A DNA stretch of 64,000 bases, from positions 1 through 64,000 of the forward strand of contig VGVQ01000011.1 in NCBI GenBank assembly GCA_016874005.1, read 5' to 3'. This document shows positions 6,581 through 62,201 of the stretch, piece by piece. The DNA comes from Gemmatimonadota bacterium. GTDB taxonomy: Bacteria > Gemmatimonadota > Gemmatimonadetes > Gemmatimonadales > GWC2-71-9. The position numbers were made by a program, and so were the translations under genes. Within the stretch, counting starts at the first letter, position 1, and each line of letters begins with the position of its first letter. Under the pieces are notes generated by a model. The model saw only the letters and a program-made list of their open reading frames with translations, was not told the DNA's origin and searched no databases.

Positions 6581-6994
6581 ATGGCCATGGGTCGTCGAGA
6601 CCGCGATGTCGTTTATCTCGAGCGCGAGGGAGGCGGAGGCCTCAAGTGGTTGGTGCTGGGCGCCGCGCTCGGCGCGGGCCTGGCGCTCTTGTTCGCGCCC
6701 CGTAGTGGCCGGGAACTGCGGCGAGAACTCGGTCGGGGGATCAAGGGAATGCGGGAGCTGGCCGATGAGACCTGGGACGAGATTCGCGACGAATTCGGGG
6801 CCGAGGATCACAGCCGCCGTTCCGCGGACGAGGGTGCCTCGGCGGGCGACGACGGCGGCGACGACCGGCCGTCGCGGCAAGCGGAACGTCCCCGCAAGCT
6901 CGCTGCCCGGGAGGAGCTCGAGCGCCGCCTCGAGGCGGCCCGGGCCCGGCGCCGTCCGCCGGTGACGGAGGCCGACGAGGAACCGGTCGCCTGA
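6581..6994 (+). CDS. YtxH-domain membrane protein
   Basis: A 137-residue protein whose start ATG follows the aldolase stop with no gap. After a short polar N-terminus comes one hydrophobic segment (about residues 22-40) with the family hallmark GxxLGAGLALLFAPRSGRELR, then an amphipathic charged region. The C-terminal half is highly charged and probably disordered or coiled. YtxH proteins are small membrane-anchored proteins linked to stress in Gram-positives, with no defined biochemical role. Its stop abuts the BrkB-type gene, so the three genes are likely co-transcribed. Confidence 0.8.
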   Translation: MAMGRRDRDVVYLEREGGGGLKWLVLGAALGAGLALLFAPRSGRELRRELGRGIKGMRELADETWDEIRDEFGAEDHSRRSADEGASAGDDGGDDRPSRQAERPRKLAAREELERRLEAARARRRPPVTEADEEPVA

Positions 6995-47937: not shown

Positions 47938-49920
47938 ATGCGATGCGCGGCGGTGATGGTGGCAGTGGCGGTGGCCCCGCTCGCGGCCCAGCGGCCGATG
48001 ACGGCGGACGACGTGCTCAAGATCAAGCAGGTATCGGACGCCCAGATCTCGCCCGACGGTCGCTGGGTGGCCTACGTCGTCGGCAGCGTCGACCTCGCCC
48101 AGAACGCCGTCAACACGGATATCTGGTTGGTCGCCACCTCCGGCGGCGAGCCGATTCGGCTCACCTCGCATCCCAAGGCCGACGGAGAACCGAGGTGGTC
48201 GCCCGACGGGAAGTGGATCGCCTTCGTGTCGGCCCGGGAGGACCGACCCCAAGTCTGGGGCATTCGACCGGGGGGTGGCGAGCCGGAACGGTGGACGGAG
48301 AGCAAGACCCCGGTGCAGTCGTTTCAGTGGTCACCGGACGGCTCGAAGTTGGCGTTCGTGGCTCTCCGAGAGCTCACCGCCGAGGAAGAGCGGAAGGAGA
48401 AAGAAAAAGACGATGCCGAGTTGGTCGACCGCAACTTTCGGATGAGCTGGCTCTGGCTCTTCGACCTGGCGACCAAAAAGAGCGCCGAGCTGGTCAAGGG
48501 TGATTTCACGGTGAGCGAGCCCCGGTTTTCGCCGGATGGCACCCGCCTCGCGTTCGTGAGCCGTCCGACGCCGAAGGCCGACGACGGTTCGCTGTCGGAC
48601 ATCCACGTGGTGACCATCGCGACCGGGGCCGTGCGGCGGCTGATCGACAACCGGGGCCCGGACAACTCGCCCCGGTGGTCGCCGGATGGGCGATGGATCG
48701 CCTATAGCAGCCGGGGCGACTCGCTCCGGGCGTTCGGCCAGCAGCAGCTGATGATCGTCGCCGCGGAGGGCGGGGCTCCGCGGCCGGTCACCCGCAGCTT
48801 CCTCTACCAGCCTGGCCCGGTGACCTGGTCGGCCGACGGGCACACCCTCTACTTCAGCGCCGGGGTCCGGACCACCATCCAATACTTCTCGGTGCCGGCG
48901 TCCGGCGGCGAGCCCAAGCAGCTCTCGACGGGCGCGGGCGTCCTCGGGACGGTGTCCACCAGCGCCGATGGCCGGATGGCCGCTGCCACCTTCACCGACG
49001 TGCAGCACCCCAACGACGTCTTCGCGATCCGGAGCGTGGCGCCATGGCAGGTCGCCAAGCTCACCGACCATAACCCGGAATTGGCCGGGATCGCGCGGGG
49101 CCGGAGTGAAGTGATCAAGTGGAAGAGCAGGGATGGAATGGAGATCGAAGGTGTCGTCGTCTACCCGATCGGGTACCAGCCGAACGGCGGCCGGCGGTGG
49201 CCCACCATGGCCTTCATTCACGGCGGCCCGGCCGGCGCCTGGCTCGAGGACTTCCCCGGGCGGTGGGGTCACTACGCCCACGTCTACGCCGGGCAGGGCT
49301 GGCTGTCGTTCTACCCCAACGTACGGGGTTCGAGCAACTACGGGGAACGGTTTCTCAGGGCGAACGTCCGGGATTGGGGCGGCGGCGATTATCAGGATAT
49401 CCAGACCGGTCTCGACCACTTGATCCGTCTCGGCGTCTCCGACTCGACCCGGCTGGGCCAGGCGGGTTGGAGCTACGGCGGCTACATGACCGCCTGGACC
49501 CTGACCCAAACCAACCGGTTCAAGGGCGTGATGGTGGGGGCCGGCCTGACCAACATGTTCTCGATGTACTCCACCAACGATCTCCAGACCACGCTCGAGA
49601 ACTATTTCGGCGCCGAGCCATGGGACGACGAGGCCGCCTACCGGCGGGCCTCCGCCATGACGTTCATCAAGCAGGCCAAGACCCCGACGTTGATCCTCCA
49701 TGGGCAGCAGGACCTCCGAGTGCCCATTGGTCAGGCACAAGAGCTGTACATGGGCCTCAAGAAGAACGAGGTGCCCGTCACCCTGGTATTCTACCCCCGG
49801 GCCGGACATGGGCTCACCGAGCCGAGGCATCAGCTCGACAAGATGAAGCGGGAATACGCCTTCTTTTCCAAGACGGTGCTCGGTATCGAGGTCAAAGAGA
49901 AACCGGAGTTGACGCCATGA
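47938..49920 (+). CDS. Secreted S9 family peptidase, first of a tandem pair
   Basis: A 660-residue exported prolyl-oligopeptidase-fold enzyme. The ATG at 47938 starts a signal peptide (RCAAVMVAVAVAPLAAQ) behind GAGGTG; an upstream ATG at 47911 overlaps the previous stop but adds a polar leader. The propeller has repeated SPDGRWVAYV-type blades. The hydrolase domain has its nucleophile near Ser511 in GWSYGGYMTAW, the acid in HGQQDLRVP and the histidine in AGHGL. Its C-terminal domain is nearly the same as that of the next gene (for example LYMGLKKNEVPV). It ends by overlapping that gene by 4 nt. Confidence 0.92.
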   Translation: MRCAAVMVAVAVAPLAAQRPMTADDVLKIKQVSDAQISPDGRWVAYVVGSVDLAQNAVNTDIWLVATSGGEPIRLTSHPKADGEPRWSPDGKWIAFVSAREDRPQVWGIRPGGGEPERWTESKTPVQSFQWSPDGSKLAFVALRELTAEEERKEKEKDDAELVDRNFRMSWLWLFDLATKKSAELVKGDFTVSEPRFSPDGTRLAFVSRPTPKADDGSLSDIHVVTIATGAVRRLIDNRGPDNSPRWSPDGRWIAYSSRGDSLRAFGQQQLMIVAAEGGAPRPVTRSFLYQPGPVTWSADGHTLYFSAGVRTTIQYFSVPASGGEPKQLSTGAGVLGTVSTSADGRMAAATFTDVQHPNDVFAIRSVAPWQVAKLTDHNPELAGIARGRSEVIKWKSRDGMEIEGVVVYPIGYQPNGGRRWPTMAFIHGGPAGAWLEDFPGRWGHYAHVYAGQGWLSFYPNVRGSSNYGERFLRANVRDWGGGDYQDIQTGLDHLIRLGVSDSTRLGQAGWSYGGYMTAWTLTQTNRFKGVMVGAGLTNMFSMYSTNDLQTTLENYFGAEPWDDEAAYRRASAMTFIKQAKTPTLILHGQQDLRVPIGQAQELYMGLKKNEVPVTLVFYPRAGHGLTEPRHQLDKMKREYAFFSKTVLGIEVKEKPELTP

Positions 49921-51932
49921 ATCGGTCGATTGCGTTGGGCGGGGCGCTGGCCGCGATGCTGCTGCTGGCCGGGAGCGGGCTGGCGCGAGCCCAGGGTGGG
50001 ATCAGCGCGGAGCAGGCGGCCGGGATGCGGGTGCTGAGCAACGTGGCGGTGTCGCCGGATGGGCGATGGGTCCTCTACACGGTGACGACCGCCGATCTCA
50101 AAGCCAGTACCACCAACTCGGACCTCTGGCTGGTGGCGGCCACGGGCGGGGATCCGATCCGCCTCACCAACGGGAAGACCGTCGACGACCAGGGTCAGTG
50201 GTCGCCGGACGGCAAGTGGATCGCGTTCGTCTCCACCCGAGACGGCAAGCCGCAACTCTACCGGATCTCTCCGTTCGGCGGCGAAGCGACCAAGCTCACC
50301 GACAGCAAGGCTGGGGTCCGTTCCTTCGCGTGGGCGCCGGATGGCCGGCAGATCGCCTTCGTGGCGGGTCGGGATCCGACCCCGGACGAAGAGCGGAGAC
50401 AGCGAGAGAAGGACGACGCCATCGTCGTCGACGAGGGGTTCATCCCCACCCGGCTGAACCTGCTCGACCTCGGCACGGAGAAGGCCGCGGAACTGGTCAA
50501 AGCCGACGCCCAGATCGGGTCGATTGCCTGGTCGCCTAACGGTCGCGCGATCGCCTACGTGACCACCCCGACCCCCAAGGCCGACGACGCCCGATTCTCC
50601 GACGTTCAGGTCGTGGACGTCGCGTCGGGGACGAGCCGCAAGGTGCTCGAGAGCCCGGGCCCGGACAACAACCCGAGCTGGTCGCCCGATGGCGCCTGGA
50701 TCGCGCTCAGCACCCGGGGGCCCAAGGCCGTCTCGATCAGTCAGAGCCGCCTGGTGGTGGTGCCCGCCGCCGGTGGCGAACCGCGCCGAATCGGCGGCGA
50801 TTTCCTCTATGAGGCCGGACCGACGACCTGGGCGCCGGATGGCAAGTCGCTCTACTTCTGGTCAGCGGTGAGGACCCGGTCGGAGTTGTTCCAGGTCTCG
50901 CTGGCCGGCGGGACGCCGAAGCAGGTGTCGGACCTCCAGGGCTCGCTGGGGCTATTCGGCGGGGGCGCCCCGTCGATCAGCAAAGACGGCATGACCGTGG
51001 CGTTCCAGCGTTCCACCATCGAGGCCCCGGATGAAGTGTATCTGGCTCGCCTGGAGGCGCCCTGGCGTCACACGAAACTCACCTCGCTCCACCCCGAGAT
51101 CGCCTCGGCCTCCGTCGGAAAGGGCGAGGTGGTCCGGTGGAAGGGCAAAGATGGGCTCGAGGTCGAGGGGATCGTCGTGTACCCGGTCGGGTACCAGCCG
51201 GGACGCCGATACCCGACCGTCGCGATCATCCACGGCGGACCTTCCGGAGTGTGGAACGAGTCGTTTCCGGCCAACTGGTACAACTCGGCCCAGGTCTACG
51301 CCGGACAAGGGTGGGTGGCGTTCCTCCCTAACCCACGAGGATCGAGCGGCTACGGCGAGAAGTTCCTCGCGGCCAACTACCGCGATTGGGGTAACGGCGA
51401 CTACCACGACATCCAGACCGGGCTCGACCACTTGATTCGGCGCGGGATCGCCGATTCCACCAAGCTGGCGCAAGGTGGTTGGAGTTACGGCGGCTACATG
51501 ACCGCCTGGACCTTGACCCAGACCAACCGCTTCAAGGCGGTGATGGTCGGCGCCGGTCTCACCAACATGTACTCGATGTACTCCACCAACGACCTCCAGA
51601 TGGTGCTGGAGGAGTACTTCGGCGCGGAGCCGTGGGACGACGAGACCGCCTACCGCCGAGCCTCGGCGATGATGCACATCAAGCAGGCGAGGACCCCGAC
51701 CCTGATCATCCATGGCAAAGAAGACACCCGGGTTCCGATCGGTCAGGCCCAGGAGCTGTACATGGGCCTCAAGAAGAACGAGGTGCCGGTGGAGCTGGTC
51801 TTCTACCCCCGTGAGCCGCACGGGCTCCAGGAGCCGCGCCACGCCGCCGACAAGATCCAACGGGAGTACGACTTCTTCGCCAAATACGTCCTGGGGCTGG
51901 CCCCGAAGGAGCGACCGGAGCTGGTGCCGTGA
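49917..51932 (+). CDS. Secreted S9 family peptidase, second of a tandem pair
   Basis: A 671-residue exported S9 enzyme and clear paralogue of the gene before it. The signal peptide (ALGGALAAMLLLAGSGLARAQ) is followed by the propeller (SPDGRWVLYTVTTADLKAS...) and the hydrolase domain, with Ser523 in GWSYGGYMTAW, Asp in HGKEDTRVP and His in EPHGL. The histidine environment (EPHGL versus AGHGL) and the propeller differ most, so the pair may split substrate range. ATG 49917 overlaps the previous stop, and its own stop overlaps the next gene's GTG. Confidence 0.92.
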   Translation: MNRSIALGGALAAMLLLAGSGLARAQGGISAEQAAGMRVLSNVAVSPDGRWVLYTVTTADLKASTTNSDLWLVAATGGDPIRLTNGKTVDDQGQWSPDGKWIAFVSTRDGKPQLYRISPFGGEATKLTDSKAGVRSFAWAPDGRQIAFVAGRDPTPDEERRQREKDDAIVVDEGFIPTRLNLLDLGTEKAAELVKADAQIGSIAWSPNGRAIAYVTTPTPKADDARFSDVQVVDVASGTSRKVLESPGPDNNPSWSPDGAWIALSTRGPKAVSISQSRLVVVPAAGGEPRRIGGDFLYEAGPTTWAPDGKSLYFWSAVRTRSELFQVSLAGGTPKQVSDLQGSLGLFGGGAPSISKDGMTVAFQRSTIEAPDEVYLARLEAPWRHTKLTSLHPEIASASVGKGEVVRWKGKDGLEVEGIVVYPVGYQPGRRYPTVAIIHGGPSGVWNESFPANWYNSAQVYAGQGWVAFLPNPRGSSGYGEKFLAANYRDWGNGDYHDIQTGLDHLIRRGIADSTKLAQGGWSYGGYMTAWTLTQTNRFKAVMVGAGLTNMYSMYSTNDLQMVLEEYFGAEPWDDETAYRRASAMMHIKQARTPTLIIHGKEDTRVPIGQAQELYMGLKKNEVPVELVFYPREPHGLQEPRHAADKIQREYDFFAKYVLGLAPKERPELVP

Positions 51933-53515
51933 ACCGCTGGCTGACGATCTTCGCGGCCCCGGTCTGCCTGGCCGCGGCGCTCGCGGCGCAAGAGCCCGTC
52001 GATCTGCTGATCGCGGGCGGCACCGTCTACGACGGATCCGGTGGGACACCGTTCATCGCTGACGTCGGCATTCGGGGCGATCGGATCGTGTTCCTCGGGG
52101 ATGCCGGTTTGGCCGGGATTCGGGCGGCGCGCACTCTCGATGCCGCTCGGCGGGTCGTGGCGCCGGGGTTCATCGACCCCCACACCCACGTCGACGGCGA
52201 TCTCAGGAATCCGGCGACGCGTGGGCTGGTGCCGTTCCTGTTGCAGGGTGTCACGACCGTGATCTCCGGCAACGACGGTGGCGGGCCAGTCGACGTCGGC
52301 GCCGCGCTTCGCCGCCTCGAGGGCGGCGCGGGGACGAACGTGGCGTTCCTGGTGGGCCACGGCTCGATCCGGCGGGTCGTGCTGGGCATGTCCGACCGAG
52401 CCCCGAGCCCGACGGAGCTCGCTCGGATGGGGGCGATGGTCGCCCAGGCGATGGCCGACGGCGCGATCGGCCTCTCGACCGGCCTCTACTACGCGCCGGG
52501 CAGTTACGCGACGACGGAGGAAGTCATCGAGTTGGCCCGAGTCGCCGGCGCCGCGGGTGGCTACTACGATTCCCACATTCGCGACGAGTCGAGCTACACG
52601 ATCGGTCTCCTCGGGGCGGTCGACGAAACGATCCGGATCGGTCGGGAGGCCGGCGTGCCGGTCCACTTCGCCCACCTCAAGGCGCTCGGCGTCGACGTGT
52701 GGGGTCAAAGCGATGCCGTGGTGGCCCGAATCCTGGCGGCTCGCGCCGCCGGCCTCCGGGTCACCGCCGATCAGTATCCCTACACCGCGTCGGGCACCGG
52801 GCTCGGCGCCTCGCTGCTGCCCCGGTGGGCCGAGGCGGGCGGCCGCGACTCGCTCCTCCGCCGCCTCGCCGATCCGGCGATCGCCGCCAGGCTCGAGAAG
52901 GAGATGGCCGAGAATCTCCGCCGCCGCGGGGGAGCGGGATCGTTGTTGATCACCGGGGAGCCGGCCGCTTCACCCGCGGCAAGGGCTCGGATGCCGGCGG
53001 GCGGGAAGTGGAAGGGCAAGCGGCTCGCCGCTCTGGCCAGTGAGTTGGGCCTCGAGCCGGTCAAGGCGGCGATCGCGATCATCCAAGCGGGCGACGCGGG
53101 GATCGCCTCGTTCAACATGAGCGAGGCCGATCTCGAGCACCTGATGCGGCAGGACTTCGTGGTCACCGGCTCCGACGGTTCCGACGGCCACCCTCGGAAA
53201 TACGGGACCTTCCCGAAGAAGATCGCCAGCTATGTTCGGGAGAAAGGGGTCATCTCGCTCGCCCGGATGATTCAGGCGTCGAGCGCCCAGACCGCCGATC
53301 TCGCCAAGCTGACCGATCGGGGCCGGGTCGAGGTCGGCCGCCTCGCCGACCTGATCGTCTTCGATTCCGCGACGGTGGCCGATCGCTCGACCTATGAGCA
53401 GCCGGAGCGCCTGGCGGTCGGGATGGAGACCGTCATCGTGAACGGCCGGGTCGTGGTGACTGGCGGCCGTCCGATCGGCGCGCTCGCCGGTCGGCCCCTT
53501 CGGCGTGGCCGCTGA
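51929..53515 (+). CDS. Exported N-acyl-D-amino-acid deacylase-type amidohydrolase
   Basis: A 528-residue amidohydrolase of the D-aminoacylase group. A signal peptide (WLTIFAAPVCLAAALAAQ) is followed by DLLIAGGTVYDGSG, the first metal motif with His85 and His87 in FIDPHTHVDGD, and the group hallmark near 408 in TGSDGSDGHPRKYGTFPK. Such enzymes release D-amino acids from N-acylated forms or act as dipeptidases. GTG 51929 overlaps the S9 stop (GTGA). It fits with the serine hydrolase and S9 pair as a peptide-degrading set. Confidence 0.88.
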   Translation: MNRWLTIFAAPVCLAAALAAQEPVDLLIAGGTVYDGSGGTPFIADVGIRGDRIVFLGDAGLAGIRAARTLDAARRVVAPGFIDPHTHVDGDLRNPATRGLVPFLLQGVTTVISGNDGGGPVDVGAALRRLEGGAGTNVAFLVGHGSIRRVVLGMSDRAPSPTELARMGAMVAQAMADGAIGLSTGLYYAPGSYATTEEVIELARVAGAAGGYYDSHIRDESSYTIGLLGAVDETIRIGREAGVPVHFAHLKALGVDVWGQSDAVVARILAARAAGLRVTADQYPYTASGTGLGASLLPRWAEAGGRDSLLRRLADPAIAARLEKEMAENLRRRGGAGSLLITGEPAASPAARARMPAGGKWKGKRLAALASELGLEPVKAAIAIIQAGDAGIASFNMSEADLEHLMRQDFVVTGSDGSDGHPRKYGTFPKKIASYVREKGVISLARMIQASSAQTADLAKLTDRGRVEVGRLADLIVFDSATVADRSTYEQPERLAVGMETVIVNGRVVVTGGRPIGALAGRPLRRGR

Positions 53516-53520
53516 CGGCC

Positions 53521-55158
53521 GTGGCGACGATCTACGACCAAGGTCTCGAGCGGCGTCCGGCGAACTACGCCCCGCTCACGCCGTTAGGTTTTCTCGACTG
53601 GGCCGCCCGGGTCTATCCCCAACGCACCAGCCTGATCCACGGGGCCCGGCGGTTCACCTGGGCCGAAACCGCCCGCCGGGCTCGGGCCTTGGCATCCGCC
53701 CTCCGCCGCCGCGGGGTCCGTCCCGGCGACACCGTCGCCGCGGTGCTGACCAACACGCCCGAGATGTACGAGTGCCACTTCGGCGTTCCCCTTGCCGGCG
53801 GCGTCCTCAACGCCATCAACGTCCGACTCGATCCCGCCACCATTGCCTTCATTCTCGACCACGGCGAGGCGAAGGTGCTGCTGGTCGATCGGGAGTTCAG
53901 CGAGGTGGTCGGGCAAGCGTTGGCCCTGACAACCCGGCCGATGCTGGTCGTGGATGTCGACGATCCCGAGTACGCCGGTCCCGGCTCGGGGCTCGGCGCG
54001 GTCGAGTACGCCGCCCTCCTGGCCGAGGGAGATCCGGCGGACCGGTTCGACCCCCCGGCCGACGAATGGGACGCCATCGCCCTCAACTACACCTCCGGCA
54101 CCACCGGCAATCCCAAGGGTGTGGTCTACCATCACCGCGGTGCCTACCTCAACGCCCTCAACCAGGCGATGCTCTGGGGCCTCACCCGGCACACCGTGTA
54201 TCTCTGGACCCTCCCGATGTTCCACTGCAATGGGTGGTGCTTCCCGTGGTCGATGGCAGCGGTCGCCGGCACCAATGTCTGCCTCCGCCGGGTCGAGGTC
54301 GGCGCGATCTTCGCCGCGATCGCCGCCCACAGCGTCACCAACTACTGCGGCGCGCCGATCGTTCACAACACCATGCTCGCCGCTCCCGAGGCGCTCTGGG
54401 CCACCGTCCCCGGCCCGCTCAAGGCGTTCGTCGCCGGCGCGGCGCCCCCGGCCGCGACCATCGAGTCCCTGGCTCGGCGAGGGGTCGACCTCACCCATGT
54501 CTATGGGCTCACCGAGGTCTACGGCCCGGCGACGGTCTGCGCTCCGCAGGACGAGTGGGCGGCCCTCCCGGCGGCCGAGCAGGCTGTTCTCAATGGCCGC
54601 CAGGGCGTGCGGTACCTGGTCGAGGAAGGCTTCGAAGTGCTCGATCCCGACACGATGCAACCGGTGCCCTGGGACGGGACCACCATCGGCGAAGTCATGT
54701 TCCGCGGCAACATCACCATGAAGGGCTACCTCAAGAACCAGCGGGCCACCGAGGAAGCCTTCGCGGGCGGCTGGTTCCACTCGGGCGACCTGGCGGTGGT
54801 GTTCCCCGATGGCTACGTCAAGATCCGCGACCGGGGGAAAGACATCATCATCTCGGGCGGTGAGAACATTTCCTCGATCGAGGTCGAGGACGCCTTGCAT
54901 CACCATCCGGCGGTCTTCGCTGCCGCCGTCGTGGCAAAGCCGGATCCCAAATGGGGCGAGACTCCCTGCGCCTTCGTGGAGCTCAAGCCCGGGGCGGCCG
55001 TTTCCGAGCAGGAGCTGATCGACCATTGCCGGGCCCGGCTGGCCCATTTCAAAGCCCCGAAATCCGTGATGTTCGGCCCGTTGCCGAAGACCTCGACCGG
55101 CAAGATCCAGAAGTTCGTCCTTCGCCAGCAGGTCCGTTCCGCCTCCGCCATCGAGTGA
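53521..55158 (+). CDS. Acyl-CoA synthetase (AMP-forming)
   Basis: A 545-residue adenylating enzyme activating a carboxylic acid to its CoA thioester. The motifs are NYTSGTTGNPKG (about 183-194), a mid-domain THVYGLTEVYGP (about 323-334), DRGKDIIISGGENISSIEVED (about 439-459), and the catalytic lysine in KTSTGKIQK near 530. The text near PMFHCNGWCFPW fits medium-chain or acetate/3-methylmercaptopropionate-type ligases. GTG 53521 follows the amidohydrolase stop by 5 nt. Together with the next gene it could start beta-oxidation of short or branched acids from peptide breakdown. Confidence 0.9.
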   Translation: MATIYDQGLERRPANYAPLTPLGFLDWAARVYPQRTSLIHGARRFTWAETARRARALASALRRRGVRPGDTVAAVLTNTPEMYECHFGVPLAGGVLNAINVRLDPATIAFILDHGEAKVLLVDREFSEVVGQALALTTRPMLVVDVDDPEYAGPGSGLGAVEYAALLAEGDPADRFDPPADEWDAIALNYTSGTTGNPKGVVYHHRGAYLNALNQAMLWGLTRHTVYLWTLPMFHCNGWCFPWSMAAVAGTNVCLRRVEVGAIFAAIAAHSVTNYCGAPIVHNTMLAAPEALWATVPGPLKAFVAGAAPPAATIESLARRGVDLTHVYGLTEVYGPATVCAPQDEWAALPAAEQAVLNGRQGVRYLVEEGFEVLDPDTMQPVPWDGTTIGEVMFRGNITMKGYLKNQRATEEAFAGGWFHSGDLAVVFPDGYVKIRDRGKDIIISGGENISSIEVEDALHHHPAVFAAAVVAKPDPKWGETPCAFVELKPGAAVSEQELIDHCRARLAHFKAPKSVMFGPLPKTSTGKIQKFVLRQQVRSASAIE

Positions 55159-55161
55159 GCC

Positions 55162-55947
55162 ATGACCGACACGACTCCGTACCTCCTCCGGCATCAGGAA
55201 GGCCCGGTGCTCGTCCTTACCATGAATCGGGGAGACCGGTTCAACCCGCTTTCGCGTGGGATGATCGACGCCCTTCAGGTCGAGCTGGATCGGATCGCGG
55301 AAGACTGCTCGGTTCGGGTGGTAGTGCTCGCCGCGAGCGGCCGCGGCTTTTCGGCCGGCCACGATCTCAAGGAGATGCGGGCCCACGTGGGCGACGATGC
55401 CTGGCAGCGAGGCTTGTTCGAGGCCTGCAGCCGGATGATGGTGCGGTTGACCGAGCTGCCCCAGCCCGTCATCGCTCGGGTCCACGGGATCGCCACCGCG
55501 GCCGGCTGCCAGCTGGTGTCGATGTGTGACCTCGCGGTCGCCGCCGACAGCGCGACGTTCGCGCTCCCCGGGGTCAGCATCGGGGTCTTCTGTTCCACGC
55601 CGGCTGTTGGGGTGGGGCGCAACGTCGGCCGAAAGCACGCCATGGAGATGCTGCTCACCGGGCAACCCATTTCGGCGGCGACGGCCTTGGAGTGGGGATT
55701 GGTGAATCGGGTGGTTCCCGCCGCCGACCTCGACCGCGCGATCGAGGAATTCACCCGCGCGATCTCCTCGAAGAGCGCCGCGACCATCGCCCTCGGCAAG
55801 CGGGTCTTCTATCGGCAGATCGAGCGGGGGCTCGAGCCGGCCTACGCCGCCGCGGGCGACGCCATGGCCTGCAACCTCGAGCTGCCCGACGCAGCCGAGG
55901 GCATCGACGCGTTCCTGGGGAAACGGGCCCCGGTGTGGCCCTCGTGA
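55162..55947 (+). CDS. Enoyl-CoA hydratase/isomerase
   Basis: A 261-residue crotonase-fold enzyme. The oxyanion-hole segments are SGRGFSAGHDLKEM (about 55-68) and HGIATAAGCQLVSMCDLAVAA (about 110-130). LPGVSIGVFCSTPAVGVGRNVG and TGQPISAATALEWGLVNRVV are also typical. The catalytic glutamates of true hydratases are not obvious at the usual places, so an isomerase or other crotonase role is possible. It starts 4 nt after the synthetase and ends 119 nt before the lasso operon. Confidence 0.88.
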   Translation: MTDTTPYLLRHQEGPVLVLTMNRGDRFNPLSRGMIDALQVELDRIAEDCSVRVVVLAASGRGFSAGHDLKEMRAHVGDDAWQRGLFEACSRMMVRLTELPQPVIARVHGIATAAGCQLVSMCDLAVAADSATFALPGVSIGVFCSTPAVGVGRNVGRKHAMEMLLTGQPISAATALEWGLVNRVVPAADLDRAIEEFTRAISSKSAATIALGKRVFYRQIERGLEPAYAAAGDAMACNLELPDAAEGIDAFLGKRAPVWPS

Positions 55948-55979
55948 CGTCGAAGTAACCGAATCGCCGCATTGTGCCA

Positions 55980-56002
55980 GGCCGGGCCGTTCGGCCCAGG
56001 CC
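55980..56002 (+). terminator. GC hairpin after the enoyl-CoA hydratase gene
   Basis: GGCCGGGCC (55980-55988), loop GTTC, then GGCCC-A-GGCC (55993-56002) gives a 9-bp stem with one bulged A. There is no T-run. It lies between the enoyl-CoA hydratase stop and the lasso operon, where the transcript may end or be processed. Confidence 0.35.
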
Positions 56003-56065
56003 CGAAACGGCAAGATGTTGCCACCGATCGCATTGTAGCGGGTCGATCGCCGGGCGAAGGTTGGT

Positions 56066-56398
56066 GTGAAGCATCAACCGCGCCAGGGACGAGCACGCGT
56101 GATTCGATCGATCTTCGCTGGTGGATCCAGCCGAGTGGTCCGGTACCGTCAGGCACCGGCCGTTCTCAGCGTCGACCATGGACAAAAGACGGTGCTGCTC
56201 GATCCGAATTCCGAGCAGTTCTATGCGCTCGACGGCGCCGCCCAACGGATCTGGTCGCTGCTGGAGGCGCCCCGGGCGGCGGAGGAGATCGTCGCCTCGT
56301 TGCGGGAGGCGTACCCGGTGTCCGCCGATGAACTTGCCGGCGATGTCACCGCATTCCTCGACGAAATGACCCAGCTGCGGCTGGTCGAGGCCAAATGA
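56066..56398 (+). CDS. Lasso peptide B1: PqqD-like leader-binding protein (RRE)
   Basis: The 110-residue protein carries the PqqD-like RiPP recognition element that grips the precursor leader and brings it to the leader peptidase. The domain starts near residue 30 (APAVLSVDHGQKTVLLDPNSEQFYALDGAAQRIWSLLEAP) and ends in the winged-helix part (ADELAGDVTAFLDEMTQLRLVE). This is a stand-alone B1, as in actinobacterial-type clusters. The GTG at 56066 has GAAGG 5 nt upstream. A second GTG at 56099 would give 99 residues. Its stop overlaps the B2 start by 4 nt (ATGA). It is the first gene of the four-gene operon. Confidence 0.9.
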   Translation: MKHQPRQGRARVIRSIFAGGSSRVVRYRQAPAVLSVDHGQKTVLLDPNSEQFYALDGAAQRIWSLLEAPRAAEEIVASLREAYPVSADELAGDVTAFLDEMTQLRLVEAK

Positions 56399-56778
56399 GG
56401 CCCGCCTCGCCGCTGTGGTGCCTCATGGTCCTCGCCGCGGTGCGGACCTCGCTCAAGGCGGCGGGGTTCCGGCGGACGATCCGGTGGGCGCAACGACTTG
56501 CTCCGGCGCCGCATCCCGAGGCCCGCCGAGAGTTGGTCGAGGCCCAGGCGCGCGCCGTGGCCGTGGCGGCCGCCTTCTTCCCCGGGCGAGCCATCTGCCT
56601 GGAGCAGTCGATCGCGCTCTACCTCGTGCTCCGTCGCCGGCGGGTCCCCGCCGTTCTTCGGATCGGCGTCCAGCCCTATCCGTTCGCCGCCCATGCGTGG
56701 GTCGAACTGGACGGCCAGCCGATCTACGAGAACGAAGACGATCTCGCCAAGTTCGTGGCCTTCCCCGGTCTCGCCTGA
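56395..56778 (+). CDS. Lasso peptide B2: transglutaminase-like leader peptidase
   Basis: The 127-residue cysteine protease is the stand-alone catalytic half of lasso protein B; it cuts the leader just before the core glycine. The catalytic cysteine is Cys68 in AICLEQSIALYLVLR, the histidine is His100 in FAAHAWVEL, and an acidic residue follows at 106. The N-terminal helices (residues 1-60) are typical of B2. ATG 56395 overlaps B1 by 4 nt, and its TGA shares one base with the ATG of C, so all three are translationally coupled. Confidence 0.9.
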   Translation: MRPASPLWCLMVLAAVRTSLKAAGFRRTIRWAQRLAPAPHPEARRELVEAQARAVAVAAAFFPGRAICLEQSIALYLVLRRRRVPAVLRIGVQPYPFAAHAWVELDGQPIYENEDDLAKFVAFPGLA

Positions 56779-58631
56779 TGAACCCGTTCCTGGTGGTCGT
56801 CGATCTCGACGGCGGATCGCTCGGACTCGACGCCCTGCAGCCCGGCCTCCCGGCGCTGTCGCAGAGCGACGGGCGAGTAGAGGTCCTCTGGAACGAATCC
56901 TGGGCCGCGGGGTGGGTGCCTTCGGCGACCTTCGAACGGCCGGGGTTCGTCTCCCAGCATGGGATCTTCGCGGTGGGCAACGTTCGGCTCTCGGGGCGAC
57001 CGAAGGACGGAGCGCACCCCACGGCCGACCTGGTGCACCTGATCAACGAGTACCGCCGAGTCGGGCCGATGGCCGTCCGCGAGCTGATCGGCGACTTCAG
57101 CTTCGTGCTCTGGGATAGTCACAACCGCCAGGTTCTGGCCGGTCGCGACGCGCTCGGGGTAAAGACCCTGTTCTGGCAACAGCGGGGACGCCGCCTGTAT
57201 CTCTCCTCCCACCTCGACTGCCTCGAAGGCGCGGCCTACGATGGGGAGTTCATCGGGCACTTCCTGGTGGGCCTCCCCCACGCCACCGACCGCACCATCT
57301 ACGCCGATGTTCACCGGTTGCCGGCTGGCGCCATCCTCACTTGGAGCAAGAACCGGCTCGAGACCAGGAGGTTTTGGAGCCCCTCGGAGTTCATCGGCGT
57401 CGACCGGCGGATCGGGCTCCCCGACGCCGCGGCCGAGTTCCGGCGGTTGTTCGAGGAGGCCGTCGTGGCCCAGCTCGACGACCGGGTCCCGGCCTGGTCG
57501 CAGCTGTCGGGCGGCCTCGACTCGTCCGGGGTAGTCGGGGTCGCGTCGCGACTGGCCGATCGGGGGCAGGTGGCGCGGTTAGGCGGGACGGTGTCGGTGG
57601 TCGACTCACTCGGCGGTGGAGACGAGACCAAGTACTCCGACGCCGTCCTGGCCCGATACCCGTTGCCCAATGCCCAGCTGCTCGACTTCGGCGCCTGGCA
57701 GGCCGACGAGCAAGGACCGCCCCGCCAAGGCGAGCCGCGGATCTTCCTGCCGTTCTTCGCCCGGAGCCGGGCGATGAACGAGGCCGTCTTCGGCGGCGGG
57801 GGCCGAGTCCTCCTGAGCGGGTTCGGGTCGGACAATTACCTGGCCGGCCCCCACGGCTACCTGGCCGATTGGGTCCGCCAAGGCCGGCTCCTGGCCGCCG
57901 CCAAGCAGATCACCGACGTTGCGGTGGCGAGTCGGCGGTCGTTCTACCGAGTCGGCTTCGACAACGTGGTCCTCCCGCTCGTCCCGGCGTTTCTCAAGCG
58001 GCGGTGGCACGACGCCGCCGGCCAGCTGCCCCCGTGGATCGACGGCGGCTTTGCCCGCCGTCATGGCTTGATCGATCGCGCGGCTGGGATCGGCTTTCCG
58101 TCCGCTGGGTTGGGCGTGTTCGGCGATGCCCAGATGGTTGAGCTGGGGACGCTCGACCTGGCGCTCGAGCGCGGCATCTCGGAGGAAGGAATCGAGATGC
58201 GCTACCCGTTCCTCCATCGGCCGCTGGTCGAGTTCTGCTTGACCCTGCCGGCCACGCTCAAGATCGGGGCCGCTCGCAAGAAGCTGGTCATGCGTGAGGC
58301 CTTGTCGGATGTGCTCCCGCCGCTGGTCCGAGACCGCCCGGGGAAGGGGGGCATCGACGGGCGGATCGCCTGGTCACTGAGCCACGAGCGCGAGCTGCTG
58401 GGCCGATTGGTGGCGCAGAGCCGCCTGGCGGATCTGGGCTGCGTCGACGCCGGCCGGCTGGCAGCTGACCTCGCCCAGGCCCAAGCGGGCAACATCTGGT
58501 CGATCGGACCGCTCTTCGCCACCCTGGCGCTCGAAACCTGGCTGGCCGTTCGGGCCGGCCAGTATTCCGAATCTGTACCCGCAGGAGCCGCGGCAGGGGC
58601 CGCGGCCGAATCACACCAACCAAGGAGTTGA
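56778..58631 (+). CDS. Lasso peptide C: asparagine-synthetase-like macrolactam synthetase
   Basis: A 617-residue ATP-dependent cyclase. It activates an Asp or Glu side chain in the precursor core and joins it to the N-terminal glycine. The N-terminal glutaminase-like domain lacks the catalytic Cys2 (it begins MNPF) but keeps GDFSFVLWD (105-113) and GRDALGVKTLFW (122-133). The synthetase domain has the ATP loop SGGLDSS at 244-250. The loss of Cys2 fits lasso cyclases, which use no glutamine. It begins on the A of the B2 TGA and ends 2 nt before the precursor start. A true asparagine synthetase is unlikely given B1, B2 and the precursor beside it. Confidence 0.92.
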   Translation: MNPFLVVVDLDGGSLGLDALQPGLPALSQSDGRVEVLWNESWAAGWVPSATFERPGFVSQHGIFAVGNVRLSGRPKDGAHPTADLVHLINEYRRVGPMAVRELIGDFSFVLWDSHNRQVLAGRDALGVKTLFWQQRGRRLYLSSHLDCLEGAAYDGEFIGHFLVGLPHATDRTIYADVHRLPAGAILTWSKNRLETRRFWSPSEFIGVDRRIGLPDAAAEFRRLFEEAVVAQLDDRVPAWSQLSGGLDSSGVVGVASRLADRGQVARLGGTVSVVDSLGGGDETKYSDAVLARYPLPNAQLLDFGAWQADEQGPPRQGEPRIFLPFFARSRAMNEAVFGGGGRVLLSGFGSDNYLAGPHGYLADWVRQGRLLAAAKQITDVAVASRRSFYRVGFDNVVLPLVPAFLKRRWHDAAGQLPPWIDGGFARRHGLIDRAAGIGFPSAGLGVFGDAQMVELGTLDLALERGISEEGIEMRYPFLHRPLVEFCLTLPATLKIGAARKKLVMREALSDVLPPLVRDRPGKGGIDGRIAWSLSHERELLGRLVAQSRLADLGCVDAGRLAADLAQAQAGNIWSIGPLFATLALETWLAVRAGQYSESVPAGAAAGAAAESHQPRS

Positions 58632-58633
58632 TC

Positions 58634-58756
58634 ATGTCGAACTACACCAAGCCGACCGTGACCAAGATTGGCTCGATCGTGCAGAAGACCGAGGGTGGCT
58701 GGACCTGGCAGGACATCGAGGTCATGAGCAAGCGGGGCTGCGGCAGCGGCAACTAG
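58634..58756 (+). CDS. Lasso peptide A: precursor peptide (40 residues)
   Basis: The ATG at 58634 has AAGGAG (58622-58627) 6 nt upstream and begins 2 nt after the C gene stop. The leader obeys the RRE-binding rule at every position: Tyr4, Pro7, Val9 (the Leu/Val site), Gly13, Thr19 at position -2 and Gly21 as the first core residue. The predicted 20-residue core is GGWTWQDIEVMSKRGCGSGN. Gly1 can be joined to Asp7 (7-membered ring) or Glu9 (9-membered ring). Trp3 and Trp5 would lie in the ring. Met11, Lys13 and Arg14 are bulky enough to lock a threaded tail. The lone cysteine at core position 16 has no partner. The calculated mass after loss of one water is about 2148.95 Da (monoisotopic). The gene is shorter than usual gene-finding cut-offs. 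Confidence 0.88.
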   Translation: MSNYTKPTVTKIGSIVQKTEGGWTWQDIEVMSKRGCGSGN

Positions 58757-58778
58757 TCGCCGGCCAAGACCCAGTTCG

Positions 58779-58805
58779 GGCGGGCGGGCGCCAAACCCGC
58801 CCGCC
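58779..58805 (+). terminator. Perfect 10-bp GC hairpin after the lasso precursor
   Basis: GGCGGGCGGG (58779-58788) pairs with CCCGCCCGCC (58796-58805) around a 7-nt loop. It begins 22 nt after the precursor stop. The T-run is reduced to TT, so it may be a weak intrinsic terminator or a stabiliser of the precursor message. Confidence 0.5.
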
Positions 58806-58892
58806 TTGGCGCGCCCTCAACATTCCCACCGGCAAGCCGATGCCCTAGATTGAGTTACCAGCGTTGACACACCGGCTCCCCAAGGAGTCCTG

Positions 58893-61370
58893 TTGACCGA
58901 CCGCCGTAGGTTGTTGCCCGTCTGGTTCGTGCCTTGGATCCGCGGCGGCGGGTGGCTGGCTTTCGGTGCCGGCCTGAGCATCCTAACACTCACGATCCTT
59001 AGGCCCGGCTATGGCGGGCTCGCCGCCGTTCTCGTTCCGGGGTGGTCACTCGTTGCTGTCGTGTGGGCGGCGGCGGTCATTCGAGTGCGCAAGGGCGGAG
59101 CGGTTCGGCAAGCGGCTTTGGCAGCGCTCCTTGCCGTCGTGGCGTCGATGGGCATGGCCGTCGGGCTGTCGGGGGTCGGTCCGCCCCCAGCTTGGTTGCG
59201 CTGGCTGGCGATCGTTCACATGCCGTTGTTTGTGCTCAGCTTGCTCCTATGGCCGGCCCTCCGGCGGCCAAAGCAACAATGGCCCTATCTAATCATTGAC
59301 CTGTCCATTCTGGCCGTTGCGCTCGGGCTTCTAGTGTGGAACGAGTGGTACCGGCCTGACGAGCCGCCCGACGTAGAACAAGTCCTTACCGTTGCGGGGC
59401 AGGTTTCGCTCCTCCTTGGCGTAAACATAGCCGTCGTGAGGCGTCCCAGGGAACGCCACTTCGCGTCGTTCATGCTTCTGGTATGGATGTCGATTGCCGT
59501 GTTCAGCGCGAACACAGGCCTCGCGATCATGAACCCCGCGGAGAACGTCGCCGGTGCAATCGTCTCGATTGTGATGCCGACGGTTCTCCTCCTCGGCATC
59601 GCCTCCGCCGAAGCTCTCCGCGTTGAGCTCCGTTGGCCCTGGAAACGCACCGAAGGCGGCAGCCCAGTCCCTTGGATCGCGGTGCTGGCGATCACCTTCT
59701 TCGTCTTGAACCTGGTCTTCAACCAGAACGCCACTGGCGTCGGTCCCATCGTGCTCGGCGCCCTCGGCACCATGATCCTGCTGGTCATCCGCCAGGCCGT
59801 CACCGCCCGGCACAACGCCCGGCTCCAGGCCGAGCGGGCCCAACTCGAGGCGGACGCCCGGATCGCGGCGTTGGTCCGGCACACCTCCGACGTCATCCTC
59901 ATTACCGAGACCGATCTCAAAATCCGATTTGCTTCGCCTTCCGCAACGGCGTTGCTGGGCCAGGATCCGGAGGACGTCGTCGGCCGCGACATTCTCTCGT
60001 TGGTCGAACCGGATCTCCGCGAGGCCATCCAACTGATGGTGGCCGAACGCATCGCGGTGCCGGGGCAGAGCGCGGTGGCCAATTGGAAAATGCCGGGGCC
60101 CGGCGGGGACGTGCGCCGAGTCGAGGCGGTGGTCACCAACCTGGTCCATCAGCCGACCATCGGCGGCCTGGTGTTCACCCTGCGCGACCAGACCGAACGG
60201 GCCCTGCTCGAAGAACAGCTCAATCAGGCCCAGAAGATGGAGGCCATCGGACAGCTGGCCGGCGGGGTCGCTCACGACTTCAACAACCTCCTCACCACCA
60301 TCATGGGGCACAGCGAGGTCGGCCTCGAGATCCTCGAGCCCGGGCACCCCGTCCGGGACGACCTCGAGCAGGTGCTCAAGGCCTCCCAGCTCGCCGCCTC
60401 GCTCACCCGCCAATTGCTCGCCTTCAGCCGAAAACAGGTGGTCGAGCCGAAGGTGATCAACGTGAGCGGCACCCTGGCCGAAGTGGTCCGGTTGCTCAAG
60501 CGCCTGATCAAGGAGGACGTCACCACGGTGCTCGACGTGGCCTCCGATCTTGGCCACGTCAAGATGGACCCCTCGCAACTCGAGCAGGTCGTCCTCAACC
60601 TCGCGGTCAATGCTCGCGACGCGATGCCCGAGGGCGGCCGACTCACGATTCGGGCCCGCCGCCAGTTGGTCGAACGGCAGATCACCGACGCCGTCATTCC
60701 GGTCGATCCGGGCGAGTACCTGGTGATCGAAGTATCCGACACCGGCGTTGGGATGGATGACGCAACCCAGCAACGGATCTTCGAGCCGTTCTTCACCACC
60801 AAACCGGTGGGGCGCGGTACTGGCCTCGGTCTGGCCAGCGTCTACGGCATCGTCCGACAGAACAGTGGTGGTCTGGTCCTGGTGAGCCAACTCGGCCGGG
60901 GGACCACCTTCACCGTGTACCTCCCCCGGATCGAAGCGGAGCCGGAACAGGCGGCGGCCGCCCCGCGGCGCCGACCGGTTCGCGGCGAGGGCGCCACGAT
61001 CCTTCTGGTGGAAGACGAAACCGCCCTCCGGGAGATCGCCGAGAAGGTGCTGCGCCGGGAGGGCTACCGGGTCCTGGTCGCCAGCGACGGCGACGAAGCC
61101 CTCATGCTCGCGGCGGGATCGCCCCATCCGATCGACCTGGTCCTCACCGACGTCATCATGCCCGGCATGTCCGGCAGCCAGATGGTGGCCGAGATGCGCA
61201 AGCTCAAGCCGATCTCCCGGGTCCTCTATATGTCGGGCTACCCGGGAGAGGATCTCATCGGGCGGCTCGGGATCGACGACCGACTCCTCCGGAAGCCCTT
61301 CACGCCCTTCGTCCTGGTCGAGAACATTCGGGCCGTGTTCGAAGGCCGCGAGGCGCCCAGCAACCCGTAA
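58893..61370 (+). CDS. PAS-containing hybrid histidine kinase with N-terminal membrane sensor
   Basis: A 825-residue hybrid kinase. A polytopic sensor with about eight helices (residues 1-290) leads into a coiled linker, a PAS domain (about 325-435), HisKA with [18 protein letters not shown] (His near 460), HATPase (about 555-680; [22 protein letters not shown]) and a receiver with the phospho-accepting Asp near 752 ([11 protein letters not shown]). The start is TTG 58893, fixed by AAGGAG at 58881-58886. Codons for about residues 1-250 are unlike the rest: CTA, CTT, GTT, GTA and ATA are frequent there and rare after 59640. It follows the lasso operon and could sense a related signal, but no proof exists in the sequence. 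Confidence 0.9.
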
Positions 61371-61373
61371 ACC

Positions 61374-62201
61374 GTGGATCTCGAGCGGTATTTCGAACGA
61401 ATCGGCTATCGCGGTACCCCGAGCGGGAACCTCGAGACCCTCACCGCGATCCATCGCGCCCACCTCCTCGCCATCCCCTACGAGAACCTCGACATCCACC
61501 TCGGGCGGCGACTGGTGCTGGACCAGGACAGGAGCTATCAGAAGCTCGTGGTCGAGCGTCGAGGCGGCTGGTGCTACGAGATGAACGGCCTCTTCGCCGC
61601 GGTGCTGGAGCGACTCGGCTTTCGGGTCACCAAGGCCTGGGGGACGGTGGGCCGAGCCAGCCGGGGCGAGGCGGTCGAGGGCAATCACCTGGTCTTGCTG
61701 GTCGATCTCGATCGGCGATACCTCGCCGACGTGGGCTTCGGCGATGGGTCGATCGATCCGCTCCCTCTCGAAGTCGGCGGCTATCGGACCGCCGGCTTCG
61801 AGGTCGCCATCGGCCGGGAAGGCGATCGCTGGGTGTTTCGGAACCACCAGTATGGGGCCGCGGCGGAGTTCGATTTCACCGAGGCGCCTCGGGTACTCGC
61901 CGACTTCCGGCCCCGGTCGGACGCGCTCCAGACCGAGCCCGATTCGCCCTTCGTCCAGAAAACCGTGGTCCAGCGGCACCGGCCGGAGGGCATCGTCACC
62001 CTCCGCGGGGCGGTCCGGTCGTTGGTCTCGCCGGGCGGGATCGAGCGCCGCACGTTGAAAGATCCAGTAGATTTTCAGCAGACCCTGGCGACCGATTTCG
62101 GGCTCGATCTCGGCGACCAGACCGCCCGGCTGTGGGCAATCATCGAGGAGCGACACCGCCAATGGCTCGCCGAATCCCCGGAGCAACCGCCGCGCTGCTG
62201 A
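61374..62201 (+). CDS. Arylamine N-acetyltransferase
   Basis: A 275-residue NAT-family acyltransferase that moves an acetyl group from acetyl-CoA to an amine. The triad is visible: Cys67 in RRGGWCYEMN, His105 in EGNHLVLL and Asp119 in LADVGFG. The opening YFERIGYRGTPSGNLETLTAIHRAHLLAIPYENLD is standard. GTG 61374 follows the kinase stop by 3 nt. Relatives also act in natural-product assembly (amide synthases), which is worth keeping in mind beside a RiPP operon, though simple detoxification is equally likely. Confidence 0.92.
   Translation: MDLERYFERIGYRGTPSGNLETLTAIHRAHLLAIPYENLDIHLGRRLVLDQDRSYQKLVVERRGGWCYEMNGLFAAVLERLGFRVTKAWGTVGRASRGEAVEGNHLVLLVDLDRRYLADVGFGDGSIDPLPLEVGGYRTAGFEVAIGREGDRWVFRNHQYGAAAEFDFTEAPRVLADFRPRSDALQTEPDSPFVQKTVVQRHRPEGIVTLRGAVRSLVSPGGIERRTLKDPVDFQQTLATDFGLDLGDQTARLWAIIEERHRQWLAESPEQPPRC

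Follow-up and report, generated by a model that had tools for sequence, protein, structure and literature searches.

A probable lasso-peptide biosynthetic operon from a Gemmatimonadetes bacterium, with a conserved hybrid histidine kinase gene beside it

Genes and enzymes of the operon

The 64-kb stretch of DNA analyzed here (the window) carries four genes that run head to tail on the plus strand in the order B1-B2-C-A and are followed by a gene for a hybrid sensor histidine kinase. The features of the locus are as follows.

56066-56398, plus strand: B1, PqqD-like protein predicted to bind the leader (RiPP recognition element), 110 aa, GTG start, exact start uncertain
56395-56778, plus strand: B2, transglutaminase-fold protein, predicted leader peptidase, 127 aa
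56778-58631, plus strand: C, asparagine-synthetase-like protein, predicted ATP-dependent macrolactam synthetase, 617 aa
58622-58627, plus strand: AAGGAG, ribosome-binding site of the precursor as read from the sequence, six bases 5' of the precursor ATG
58634-58756, plus strand: precursor A, frame of 40 codons
58634-58693, plus strand: leader peptide, MSNYTKPTVTKIGSIVQKTE, with Tyr at -17, Pro at -14, Val at -12, and Thr at -2
58694-58756, plus strand: core peptide, GGWTWQDIEVMSKRGCGSGN, plus stop codon, with a predicted Gly1-Glu9 lactam
58777-58807, plus strand: stem-loop downstream of the precursor, rich in G+C and lacking a T run
58846-58851, plus strand: TAGATT box, a candidate for the -10 promoter element upstream of the kinase, found in all five precursor-kinase gaps
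58893-61370, plus strand: hybrid sensor histidine kinase, identified by its Pfam domains and by its conserved adjacency to and co-occurrence with the lasso genes

An initial annotation of this DNA had described three enzyme frames coupled by overlapping stops and starts and, two bases later, a 40-codon frame, and all four were present where it had placed them. B1 and B2 overlap by 4 bases (ATGA; B2 start at 56395, B1 stop at 56398), and B2 and C overlap by a single base (TGATG; the B2 stop and the C start both lie at 56778). Only 2 bases separate the C stop (58631) from the precursor ATG (58634), and the strong ribosome site claimed for the 40-codon precursor is the AAGGAG listed above.

Profile searches agreed with the proposal that the three enzymes are the lasso B1, B2, and C set. 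B2 matched the NCBIfam model NF033537 (lasso_biosyn_B2) at 95.9 bits, over the curated cutoff of 33, and Pfam Transglut_core3 at 93.5 bits; its Cys68, His100, and Asp106 were invariant in an alignment of three full-length B2 proteins. There was one match to PF13471 in the window's genome, and a second B2 was not found there. B1 matched Pfam PqqD at 61.1 bits (cutoff, 23.4), and its top match in the PDB was TbiB1, a lasso B1 protein (E value, 1.3e-6). Scores for B1 against the NCBIfam models lasso_PqqD_Bac and lasso_PqqD_Strm were 42.3 and 42.0 bits, both below the respective cutoffs of 70 and 80. C had been described as an asparagine-synthetase-like protein lacking Cys2; it begins MNPF, without the Cys2 glutaminase nucleophile, and matched Pfam Asn_synthase at 112.9 bits. 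Its best NCBIfam match was lass_lactam_cya, at 194 bits (below the cutoff of 525), and its ATP motif, SGGLDSS (residues 244 to 250), was invariant in an alignment of three full-length relatives.

When all six reading frames of the window were scanned, the strict leader motif YxxPx(L/V)xxxGxxxxxTxG occurred a single time, in the precursor, and no match arose when the residues of these frames were shuffled 200 times. The precursor fits the B1/B2 recognition rule exactly, as had been claimed. The leader scored 16.4 bits against NCBIfam lasso_leader_L3, slightly below the cutoff of 19. Each sequence element by which we recognize a lasso cluster was found here: B1, B2, C, the leader motif, and a core with Gly1 and an acidic ring residue.

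Related clusters and the adjacent kinase

Searches for B2 covered 288 genomes of the order and returned matches in 41. Around the best of these matches, the closest set fell within one family, comprising G091, G092, and G090, which belong to the same genus as the window, and G069, from another genus. The B1-B2-C-A order was complete in G091 and G069; in G092 and G090, only the end of C and the precursor were seen, as contig ends cut these clusters before B1 and B2 come into view. Orthologous precursors lie directly after C in all four genomes, and their occurrence at this shared position supports the 40-codon frame as real coding sequence. The leader motif was kept in the precursors of all five genomes. 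A model built from the five precursors found no further member at an E value of 1e-3 or better among 394 genomes of the class. Weak precursor matches in G094, G096, and G194 were rejected because they begin inside the leader and resemble parts of other frames. A contig database search with the single C protein gave no match, and one with a three-member C alignment returned the G069 contig as the sole close relative. These five clusters are related, with four coming from a single genus, and do not count as independent samples.

Two precursor-like frames from elsewhere are recorded here as separate observations. A more distant precursor (L036 in G197, at 6638) follows C and has the core GGIFQPLLELQGTFIFRWGF, also with Gly1-Gly2 and Glu9. 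In G219 (L048, near 10690 on the minus strand), a frame with the exact leader motif has a core that starts GEPMGDTMECHGM and also has Glu at position 9; a long Gly-rich tail follows its core, and it lies on the strand opposite that cluster's enzymes.

The extent of the operon as initially annotated takes in the precursor and the three enzymes but left the conserved neighboring kinase gene outside its coordinates. Pfam assigned PAS, HisKA, HATPase, and receiver domains to the C-terminal part of the kinase. The N-terminal third had no Pfam match; about ten helices are predicted in it, and AlphaFold modeled it with low confidence (mean pLDDT for the sensor region, 46.9). The kinase gene lies directly downstream of the precursor in all five clusters. 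When the N-terminal region was used to query 101 genomes of the family, the only strong matches in other genomes were in G092, G090, G069, and G091, with one weak match in G094 (43.6 bits), and it was through its kinase match that the G090 precursor was discovered. Among 287 genomes of the order, a kinase profile scored about 430 to 480 bits for the four intact copies and below 80 bits in every genome without these lasso genes, a less independent test in that the profile was built from those same four copies. In the fifth cluster (L032, G091:C3), the kinase gene lies in pieces on either side of an insertion that includes an IS3-type integrase frame, and the lasso genes are intact; the kinase is therefore either not essential or lost in the G091 strain.

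It is possible, if somewhat doubtful, that the kinase is an unrelated neighbor retained by shared synteny and that the cluster works without it, a reading compatible with lasso biosynthesis. Besides the interrupted G091 gene and the origin of four of the five clusters in one genus, the structure of the precursor-kinase gap favors this alternative, since a stem-loop and a candidate promoter for the kinase stand between the two genes. The TAGATT box occurs 77 to 153 bases after the precursor in the five gaps, against a background of 0.008 per 200 bases. Stem-loops follow the precursor in five of five clusters, with z scores from -1.4 (the window) to -4.8; the window stem-loop alone was not significant. 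A scan for consensus promoters and terminators gave nothing over chance. Against retention by synteny, the genes on the far side of the kinase differ: NAT and CocE genes follow the window kinase and are unmatched beside the G091 kinase. Upstream, an S9-S9-amidohydrolase block reflects genus synteny, being present also in G091, G092, and G089, but it was not found near the cluster of G069, the member from another genus. Moreover, in the 101 family genomes and the 287 order genomes, every strong match to the sensor region lay beside lasso genes. Because the flanking genes on either side differ between clusters, we take the conserved unit to be B1-B2-C-A-kinase.

With the kinase considered as a functional partner, it would most likely either control the cluster or sense the product or its target. 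Regulation of the cluster would be the conservative reading and direct sensing of the peptide the bolder one. We think such direct sensing unlikely, though worth stating; similarly speculative is the idea that the cluster forms a self-contained lasso signaling pair, in which the adjacent dedicated multi-helix hybrid kinase would respond either to the peptide or to target engagement by it. If true, Gemmatimonadetes would here have a system for communication or self-sensing built on a lasso peptide.

Flanking genes, core peptide, and ring

The operon had been called “complete,” which is correct as far as A and its three enzymes are concerned, but the cluster contains neither an exporter nor an isopeptidase. 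No ABC exporter (D, which is optional in lasso clusters) was found among the Pfam-scanned genes from 49959 to 62201, and the interval from B1 to the kinase has no unassigned long frame. Upstream, at 48004 to 51932 of the window, two tandem S9 peptidase genes lie beside an amidohydrolase gene in the block conserved in the genus. We consider it very improbable that the S9 peptidase at 49959 to 51932 serves this cluster as its lasso isopeptidase. It does score 195 bits against the AtxE2-family isopeptidase model, but the cutoff of that model is 400 and a Dpp5 model scored higher, at 270 bits; three genes separate it from B1; and no S9 gene was found within 9 kb upstream of B1 in G069. Dozens of S9-type matches occur in the window's genome, and the block is present in G089, which gave no lasso or kinase match, but there a 5-kb N stretch lies near the site where a cluster could be expected. 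This candidate was thus rejected as an AtxE2-type isopeptidase on both score and linkage. The N run in G089 (L080, 9502 to 14501 of G089:C9) lies just inside an acyl-CoA synthetase gene, near the cluster site expected by synteny.

The sister cores are GGWNWQVIEVMSRRGKSEN (G090), GGYKFEVNELMSKRGAFGS (G092), GGLQWVVFELMGKRGGIGG (G069), and GGFKAEIMEMFSLRAAN (G091). When these were aligned with the window core, G1, G2, E9, and R14 were the sole invariant residues; Cys16 was found only in the window core. The core therefore has the expected Gly (or similar residue) at position 1 and an Asp or Glu at position 7, 8, or 9, with both G1 and E9 invariant. The initial annotation proposed one lasso peptide from this operon; that reading is supported, and the ring acceptor, which it did not name, is indicated by the comparison to be Glu9. 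In the window core, Asp7 could in principle be the acceptor, which would give a seven-residue ring, and such rings are known among other lasso peptides. However, position 7 is D only in the window, three sister cores having V there and the fourth I, whereas Glu9 is invariant, and a lasso ring closed on Asp7 is accordingly very improbable; we have set that acceptor aside. The invariance of E9 and the restriction of Asp7 to the window point to ring closure between Gly1 and Glu9. The mass predicted earlier, near 2148.95 Da, was recomputed as 2148.947 Da (monoisotopic, core minus one water).

It is also very improbable that this precursor is turned into another RiPP or into a branched-cyclic peptide without threading: threading is not readable from sequence, and the asparagine-synthetase fold also makes beta-lactams, with beta-lactam synthetase among the PDB relatives of C, but the full B1, B2, and C set occurs here with the exact lasso leader spacing and the top NCBIfam model for C is a lasso cyclase.

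Proposed biosynthesis and comparison with known systems

We are highly confident that these genes form an operon for lasso-peptide biosynthesis in a Gemmatimonadetes bacterium, given a B2 over its curated cutoff, the leader motif, the sister precursors, the invariant enzyme motifs, and the co-occurrence of the kinase. We counted against this reading the scores of B1, C, and the precursor, which are below lasso-specific curated cutoffs, and the absence of an exporter and an isopeptidase from the cluster. As expected from the families of the three enzymes, B1 would bind the leader of the 40-residue precursor, and B2 would cleave after Thr-Glu, with Thr at -2, at the putative cleavage site. C, with ATP, would then activate the Glu9 side chain and join it to the Gly1 amino group around the threaded tail. 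The predicted product is a 20-residue lasso with a nine-residue ring and a mass of about 2148.95 Da; its expression, cleavage site, ring position, and threading are what we infer from the genes.

Lasso clusters are common. In the literature searched (most subscription papers and preprints lay outside its scope), we found none of the five cores; nor did we find a characterised lasso peptide from the Gemmatimonadetes phylum. The present set thus adds a precursor family with five different cores from a phylum without a characterised lasso peptide in that literature. What a lasso peptide is for is a question open for most of those found by genome mining, and the kinase beside every copy gives a concrete, testable hypothesis on the purpose of this one. 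An antiSMASH-predicted lasso cluster has been reported for another member of the phylum, Longimicrobium terrae (PMC7291104).

Within the same order, the clusters of G199, G200, G202, G232, G234, and G040 share the B2-C-A order and the leader motif with the window. Unlike the window cluster, these have an S9 gene tail to tail with the precursor, isopeptidase-like where scanned, and their cores are unrelated to the window core. In G199 and G202, the two cases tested, B1 and B2 are separated by an ABC transporter gene, whereas the window cluster has none. The B1-B2 gap of G200 carries a long frame. In a sister family (L038, L039, and L042, from G199, G202, and G200, respectively), two tandem precursor genes with different cores ending in GFGL follow C.

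Compared with the split-B1/B2 clusters (the TbiB1 type, humidimycin, and MS-271), the window cluster shares the split B1 and B2, the asparagine-synthetase-like C, and a leader with Y-17, P-14, L or V at -12, and T-2. It differs in that the precursor gene is last (B1-B2-C-A) and in that the cluster has neither an exporter nor disulfide genes. The bsf cluster of Bradymonas sediminis also combines B1 plus B2 with a core that starts at Gly1 and the YxxPxL motif from -17 to -12 (in BsfA, Y-17, P-14, and L-12) but differs at three points (PMC10368454): residue -2 is Ile in bsf and Thr in the window, the ring closes on Asp8 in bsf and is predicted to close on Glu9 in the window, and bsf includes a precursor kinase, which the window cluster lacks.

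Lasso clusters with a histidine kinase next to them have been described before, in Streptomyces and Firmicutes. The humidimycin and MS-271 clusters of Streptomyces contain histidine kinases with response regulators, and the kinase homologue MslG raised the yield (PMC7168211). The window kinase is instead a hybrid with its own receiver and has no DNA-binding regulator directly beside it. In ruminal Butyrivibrio and Lachnospira (Firmicutes), sensor histidine kinases recur beside lasso genes, as in the window, but those kinases are of the WalK/ResE type and the clusters, unlike ours, include HPr-kinase genes as well as lasD, which encodes an ABC transporter (PMC7533575). In mechanism, then, this is an ordinary lasso cluster; its precursor family is new by sequence, and it has a conserved kinase partner with a putative function in control or sensing.
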